In this document: piece after piece, positions 9,261 through 10,160 of the stretch | Position numbering within the stretch: the first letter of the stretch is position 1 | How the letters are laid out: each line of letters starts with the position of its first letter | NCBI GenBank assembly: GCA_016207825.1 | Contig: JACQZI010000041.1 | Span: 1-35,471 of the forward strand | From: Planctomycetota bacterium | Lineage (GTDB): Bacteria > Planctomycetota > MHYJ01 > JACQXL01 > JACQZI01 | Reading direction: 5' to 3' | Length of the DNA: 35,471 bases | Notes under the pieces: model-generated | Told to the model about the DNA's origin: nothing | The model's input: the letters and a program-made list of their open reading frames with translations, nothing else | Databases searched by the model: none | Made by a program: the position numbers and the translations under genes

Positions 9261-10160
9261 TTATAATAAAATATTTTTATTAAGCAATGTAAAAACGGCT
9301 TCCAATACGCCGCCGCCGAGCGCATTGGCTTTGGCGCTTACCTTGAAACACCTGTCGCGGTTTTTGGTCGGGTCTATTTCAATCAGTTTGGTGCCTTTCC
9401 GGACCAATACGTCTTTATGCAGGATTCCCCTGAGGATTCCTGAAGCAAGCGATACGATGTTTTCTTCGCCAACCCGGGCAATGGTATCGCCCTTGTTGAT
9501 TTCGTCGCCGATATCATAATCTGTTTTAAAGATGCCTTCATTAGATGCGAAATATACCAGGTCGGCAACTTTGATATTCTTGAAATCTTCCCCGCATAAT
9601 TCCAAATCGTTCTCCTTGGGCTTGCCGGTATAAGGCGCAGGCGTGCCTTTGTATATGACCCTGCCCAAATCCGCGCCGTTAAAGCTTTCTATTACGGCAT
9701 GGCAGTTTCCTTGTGTTTCTCTGTCCGAGGCGGATCCGCCTTTGGCGGAGAAACCGGGCCCTGCCCCGATGACCACGGGGGCATCATTAATGGTTGTGTC
9801 GTTTGGCTTCTTCATCATACGTGCATCTACCAGGATATCAAACCGGTGTTTCTTCCTGATAGAGGCATCTTTATCAATAACGACGGGCACTTGATTCTTT
9901 TCCCAATCACTAATAAAAGTATCAAGCGAGGAACAGACGGCAGTAACGCCTTCTACGGTAATGCTTCCATTGTAGATTGACTCGGAGAAGGAAACTCCGC
10001 GCCTTATTGCCAGGGGCTTTTCTATTTCCGTGGCAACTACTTTGAATCCGGCAAGATACAATCGCCGGATAATGCCGGTGGCGAAATCTCCGGCACCGCG
10101 GACGAGTATTGAAGCTCGCCCGATCCGCCGTTTAGGTGGGCGGGTAGTTTTATTTAGCAT
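9261..10160 (-). CDS. yqeB: YqeB family accessory protein for selenium-dependent molybdenum hydroxylase
   Basis: A 299-aa protein of the YqeB family, which co-occurs with SelD and YqeC in genomes with selenium-dependent molybdenum hydroxylases and is thought to help mature the Se-containing cofactor. Visible signatures are the Rossmann-like start ILVRGAGDFATGIIRRL (about 18-34), DARMMKKPNDT, GAGPGFSA (about 132-139), CHAVIES, LGRVIYKG and the C-terminal GGGVLEAVF. Two oddities: residues 140-150 (KGGSASDRETQ) interrupt the otherwise conserved GPGF.A-G..CHAVIE block and are encoded by a GC palindrome, and the first 17 residues form an Arg/Pro-rich extension encoded across another small palindrome (10125-10143). 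The gene starts inside the end of the XdhC-family gene (11-base overlap) and has no Shine-Dalgarno of its own, so it is probably translationally coupled. Confidence 0.9.
   Translation of the reverse strand: MLNKTTRPPKRRIGRASILVRGAGDFATGIIRRLYLAGFKVVATEIEKPLAIRRGVSFSESIYNGSITVEGVTAVCSSLDTFISDWEKNQVPVVIDKDASIRKKHRFDILVDARMMKKPNDTTINDAPVVIGAGPGFSAKGGSASDRETQGNCHAVIESFNGADLGRVIYKGTPAPYTGKPKENDLELCGEDFKNIKVADLVYFASNEGIFKTDYDIGDEINKGDTIARVGEENIVSLASGILRGILHKDVLVRKGTKLIEIDPTKNRDRCFKVSAKANALGGGVLEAVFTLLNKNILL
9711..9749. repeat. Palindromic insertion within yqeB
   Basis: GGCGGATCCGCC (9729-9740) is a perfect 12-base palindrome and overlaps a second stem TCCGCC-TTT-GGCGGA (9735-9749). With 9711-9728 it encodes the 11 extra residues KGGSASDRETQ in YqeB. 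The length is a multiple of three and the reading frame is kept. Confidence 0.6.
10125..10143. repeat. Small palindrome in the N-terminal extension of yqeB
   Basis: CCGCC (10125-10129) and GGCGG (10139-10143) flank a 9-base loop. The element encodes part of the RPPKRR extension that precedes the conserved YqeB start. It resembles the other CCGCC/GGCGG palindromes here but is weaker. Confidence 0.35.

Follow-up and report, generated by a model that had tools for sequence, protein, structure and literature searches.

The YqeB gene of the analysed window, the whole 35.5-kb contig G000:C41 of a source genome of 2.89 Mb (97.6% complete), is interrupted in frame by a 30-bp double-hairpin sequence that very probably represents a mobile palindromic element, small, non-autonomous and of REP/RPE-like character, which preserves the reading frame of the genes that it enters; this confidence does not extend to the enzyme that may move it. 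The host gene (9261..10160, minus strand) is still an open frame, and its product matched the NCBIfam profile TIGR03309 with 247 bits, above the curated cut-off of 220. We take YqeB to be a selenium-dependent molybdenum cofactor biosynthesis protein, and the genes beside it, for an XdhC-like factor and a YqeC/MocA-like fusion, are in keeping with a locus for a selenium-dependent molybdenum hydroxylase. A PDB search for YqeB relatives gave no significant match, and an AlphaFold model of the protein with a two-sequence alignment as input had a mean pLDDT of 34.

Alignment of the protein with nine full YqeB homologues (one from Natroniella and eight from genomes of the phylum, of which one belongs to the order) revealed that residues 138-147, SAKGGSASDR, are absent as an exact 10-residue gap from all nine. 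A first-pass annotation of this DNA had proposed an in-frame insertion here and had asked for such an alignment, which showed the gap at the insert site; the insertion is real, with a size of 10 residues and 30 bp instead of 11 and 33. The annotation had further suggested a surface-loop position for the insert, for which the AlphaFold model, with its low pLDDT, gave no support. Its boundaries had also been shifted, with residues 140-150 (KGGSASDRETQ) taken as the insert, and the interval 9711-9749 began nine bases too far to the left, the element being located at 9720-9749. The coding strand of the window reads GGG CCC GGT TTC [TCC GCC AAA GGC GGA TCC GCC TCG GAC AGA] GAA ACA CAA, and the uninterrupted YqeB site of an order relative (G002) reads GGG CCG GGT TTC GAG GCC GGC. 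In silico excision of 9720-9749 left GPGF-ETQGNCHAVIE, which aligns with GPGF-EAGVDCHAAIE of the order relative. The insertion site is TC^GA (9718..9751, minus strand), of the TN^NA target type, and the corresponding TTC^GAG codons are uninterrupted in that relative. Loop length also varies further downstream in the YqeB alignment, as would be expected if the insert were ordinary loop-length variation combined with GC-rich DNA that is palindromic by chance. The exact uninterrupted site in the order relative argues against this explanation, and it was refuted by the 18 copies of the full double element found in the source genome (pattern TCCGCCNNNGGCGGATCCGCCNNNGGCGGA, up to 3 mismatches) vs 0 for the reversed-pattern control, leaving it a negligible probability.

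The consensus element, TCCGCCNNNGGCGGA-TCCGCCNNNGGCGGA, is made of two abutting 15-bp hairpins (30 bp in all) and carries no gene. The first hairpin is TCCGCC-NNA-GGCGGA and the second its inverted counterpart, TCCGCC-TNN-GGCGGA: over the 78 distinct copies retrieved, the left loop was NNA in 69 and the right loop TNN in 67, and the second hairpin is therefore the first in inverted form. Compensatory stem changes in these 78 copies amounted to 22 cells vs a shuffled mean of 2.2 and maximum of 8, with none of 2000 shuffles reaching 22. One long hairpin as the unit was rejected, with 37% of the changed cells still pairing vs 57% under the double hairpin. The palindromes recorded in the first-pass annotation, GGCGGATCCGCC at 9729-9740 and TCCGCCTTTGGCGGA at 9735-9749, are both in place, and the 12-base palindrome that it had regarded as the unit is replaced here by the double hairpin.

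The window copy, the complete element at 9720..9749 (minus strand; TCCGCCAAAGGCGGA-TCCGCCTCGGACAGA), encodes SAKGGSASDR and has 2 mismatches to the consensus. Its first hairpin (9735..9749, minus strand) is intact, TCCGCC AAA GGCGGA with a 6-bp stem and a 3-nt loop. Inspection of the sequence indicated that the second (9720..9734, minus strand; TCCGCC TCG GACAGA) is decayed, with two of the six pairs broken. The breaks stem from two G-to-A changes (coding strand), each of which also alters an amino acid (GG to DR). Because this hairpin has lost two pairs, the copy is probably not a recent insertion. It was observed to be decaying within YqeB, yet with the reading frame kept. A repeat search of the window detected an imperfect palindrome of 20+20 nt at 9715..9754, to which no strand is assigned and whose outer GTTTC/GAAAC arms are host sequence outside the element.

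The genome search that the first-pass annotation had also called for returned many further copies, in coding as well as intergenic DNA. Exact TCCGCCNNNGGCGGA was found 28 times in the source genome vs 0 for the reversed pattern, and the nine genomes of the order, whose assemblies span 1.2-4.1 Mb (several to most of them fragmented, some incomplete), contained 81 copies with up to 3 mismatches and 0 control matches. With at most 1 mismatch, the element was present in all nine genomes of the order. Of the genomes outside the order, none of 14 from the class and none of 383 sampled from the phylum had it. These data indicate that, as far as sampled, the element is confined to one bacterial order. 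Among 2.9 million viral contigs, the sole exact copy was at L078:4886-4915, on a contig listed as viral. Five of the copies in G002 (L131, L132, L133, L135, and L136) lie at the same place, TCATTCTGAACTCGGTT^CAGAATC, in a larger dispersed repeat that spans TCATTCTGA...CAGAATC, and may represent a composite that was amplified together rather than separate insertions; for this reason G002 weighs less than the other genomes.

Analysis of the flanks revealed a short preferred target. At the element ends, T occupies position -2 in 79% and T or G position -1 in 82%, the flanks being nearly random beyond two bases on each side, and TKMA flanks 35 of the 78 copies vs 1.8% of the 4-mers in the same loci. 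The target is TN^NA (often TT^CA, TT^AA, TT^GA or TG^AA), with insertion between the middle bases. Uninterrupted orthologs have these flanking bases, which are therefore target and not element: MurE, with a copy in G001, reads TTT^CAG in G004; LarC, with a copy in G000, reads ATT^CAC in the same-genus G001; and a flavoprotein oxidoreductase, with a copy in G000 and G001, reads TTT^GAY (TTT^GAC) in four genomes of the order. Exact 10-residue gaps were likewise observed for MurE of G001 and LarC of G000 against same-genus orthologs, and comparison of TrxB and PGM with their PDB homologues gave such gaps too. A search over 25 offsets for a target duplication of fixed length gave none, the excess being small and diffuse. 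The YqeB, MurE, LarC and flavoprotein sites fit what a precise gain of 30 bp in a pre-existing TN^NA, without target duplication, would leave, and the differences between congeneric genomes at the MurE and LarC sites suggest that the element is mobile. For LarC (L181, L183) and IspG (L103), orthologs within the order were seen to have insertions of unrelated kinds in or close to the same loops; these may belong to further insertion families.

The copies might alternatively be a functional DNA or RNA site, such as a terminator, a protein-binding site or an uptake signal, that is maintained by selection and lies within genes incidentally. The conservation of both sequence and pairing and the order-wide presence would be in keeping with such a role, which is nevertheless very unlikely: many copies lie mid-gene in conserved genes, each an exact gain of 30 bp that orthologs lack, only one of the sites examined is shared between genomes, and then within a genus only (L039/L123, common to two congeneric genomes and missing in five other genomes of the order), and an Rfam search of the window gave no match.

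Conserved genes bearing the element include those for MurE (L126), TrxB (L080), IspG (L103), DNA polymerase I (PolA, L115), PGM (L127), LarC (L046), a FabG-type reductase (L125), Fpg (L113), and DnaX (L109); the other Pfam hosts were a nucleotidyltransferase (L128), Pyr_redox_2 (L039), a BadFG ATPase (L081), the SecA linker (L096), peptidase M1 (L102), an integrase (L129), the RpiB C-terminus (L116), and HGD-D (L111). Coding status, which rests on codon score and Pfam hits and not on expression, was called from the scores of the six frames around each copy under a codon model, for which the long ORFs of the loci served as training set. In 19 of the 22 strong coding calls the element was read in the phase that gives SAxGGSAxGG (binomial P = 4e-7). 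A 23rd strong call, fructose-1,6-bisphosphatase (L121), was dropped, the element lying there upstream of the ribosome-binding site and ATG. Among the 31 host proteins supported by Pfam or NCBIfam, with the shared L039/L123 insertion counted once, 27 were in this phase (P = 9e-10), and 24 of 28 after removal of three N-terminal cases (L047, L138, and L092; P = 2e-8). The exceptions were L122, L104 and L110 in phase 2 and L085 in phase 1. The other frames of the element encode PPxADPPxA and RxRRIRxxR, with stops arising from certain loops only, and stop codons alone thus do not account for the bias. Its simplest reading is selection for a small, flexible peptide; the alternative would be a choice of target that depends on codon phase.

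We hold with middling confidence that these copies make up an undescribed, order-specific family of 30-bp double hairpins that behave as mobile, nearly self-in-frame linkers, with length and palindromic structure possibly shaped by survival within genes. If this is correct, every insertion gives its host protein one flexible Gly/Ser/Ala decapeptide. Most known cases of tolerated selfish DNA in essential bacterial protein genes come from Rickettsia, with fewer from REPs; the present element is far shorter than an RPE, and its lineage is unrelated and has larger genomes. The clean uninterrupted sites in close relatives, together with the phase bias, make the survival of insertions in genes directly measurable. 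Furthermore, inserts of 10 residues with the pattern SAxGGSAxGG in proteins of this order should be read as DNA parasites and not, by default, as adaptations.

As for the mechanism, insertion in the middle of TN^NA is clean and adds exactly 30 bp without duplicating the target site. With this length and a sequence free of stops in every frame, except with a few loop sequences, the element can enter genes without loss of frame, and the intragenic copies that survive are nearly all in the phase that gives the small, flexible SAxGGSAxGG. The copies would move as single-stranded hairpins, with a Y1 (HUH, RAYT-like) transposase acting in trans. The two hairpins, the lack of target duplication and the blunt insertion at a fixed, short target are what single-strand transposition by HUH/Y1 enzymes would leave. 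Y1_Tnp is present in 8 of the 9 genomes of the order vs 5 of 14 from the rest of the class (P = 0.017, Fisher test), which points to such an enzyme, a step that we consider about as probable as not; Y1_Tnp was also found in class relatives that do not carry the element. The only Y1_Tnp match of the source genome is partial, covering 68 of 121 positions in a 94-codon open frame (L054; G000:C32:46583-46789) that is possibly a remnant of the mobilising enzyme.

Spread without any transposase, through replication error, template switching or recombination with single-stranded fragments, is a live alternative, if a rather improbable one. No target duplication was found and no transposase is linked to the element, as this route would predict, and the hairpins with their compensatory changes are compatible with hairpin-templated correction. 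Against it, precise blunt insertion of 30 bp at a preferred TN^NA in unrelated genes looks enzymatic.

The copies might instead belong to a REP (REPIN) family of the GTAG/CGTC-tagged kind that has a RAYT transposase of its own; the system would then be ordinary and only its lineage unusual. REPs tagged with GTAG and CGTC have been described as forming inverted dimers and as occurring within genes, with RPE-4 and RPE-6 of R. conorii included in that description (PMC3733652). The present element resembles them in being a palindrome of 20-40 bp arranged as inverted dimers with intragenic copies and possibly moved by an HUH transposase, and the frequency of Y1_Tnp in the order would suit a REP system. 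Most REPs are intergenic, intragenic ones being known in several species with DNA polymerase I, also a host here, among the genes concerned (PMC3733652), whereas a large share of the copies of this element is intragenic, with one phase strongly preferred. In addition, GTAG/CGTC tags, on either strand, were near only 8 of 156 element ends, the element has no unit spacer, and linkage to a RAYT is missing: an exact hairpin lay within about 1.5 kb at 1 of 20 Y1_Tnp loci, so that the Y1 genes are not element-flanked. A tagged REP family is thus unlikely; because the tags are missing, the element is REP-like but not a tagged REP.

The mobile palindromic element favoured here also recalls the RPEs, which as first reported (Ogata et al. 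2000, 2002) are Rickettsia sequences of about 150 bp, according to the description in PMC10969869. As far as that description extends, both are dispersed palindromic DNA found in frame in unrelated conserved genes, kept there, and present in intergenic DNA as well, and the defining trait of RPEs, an in-frame palindromic repeat in protein genes whose homologous site is uninterrupted, was found here. On the same description, the element is set apart from RPEs by its 30 bp (10 residues), its pair of 15-bp hairpins, its different lineage and the larger genomes in which it occurs. The RPE-like process invoked in the first-pass annotation is thus apt as an analogy, and the element is not an RPE, its length and host group being different. 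The open-access literature that we searched yielded neither a report of this sequence nor one of such elements from any comparable lineage, which is weak evidence.

Transposition of the IS200/IS605 type uses hairpin ends and inserts beside a short fixed target with no target duplication. The element shares the hairpins, the short fixed target and the lack of target duplication but has no enzyme gene, and its dependence on a Y1 enzyme is putative. Mitochondrial double-hairpin elements are organellar and mostly intergenic or intronic; by description only, they are comparable in that the mobile unit is two adjacent GC-rich hairpins. At another locus of the source genome (L036:1990-2040; near 67071 on G000:C27), one hairpin of the standard type, TCCGCCAAAGGCGGA, was seen joined to a different hairpin, CCCCGACAACCGTCGGGG, the hybrid lying, again in phase 0, within an apparent succinyl-CoA ligase alpha ORF, and from this hybrid the two halves of the element may be exchangeable.
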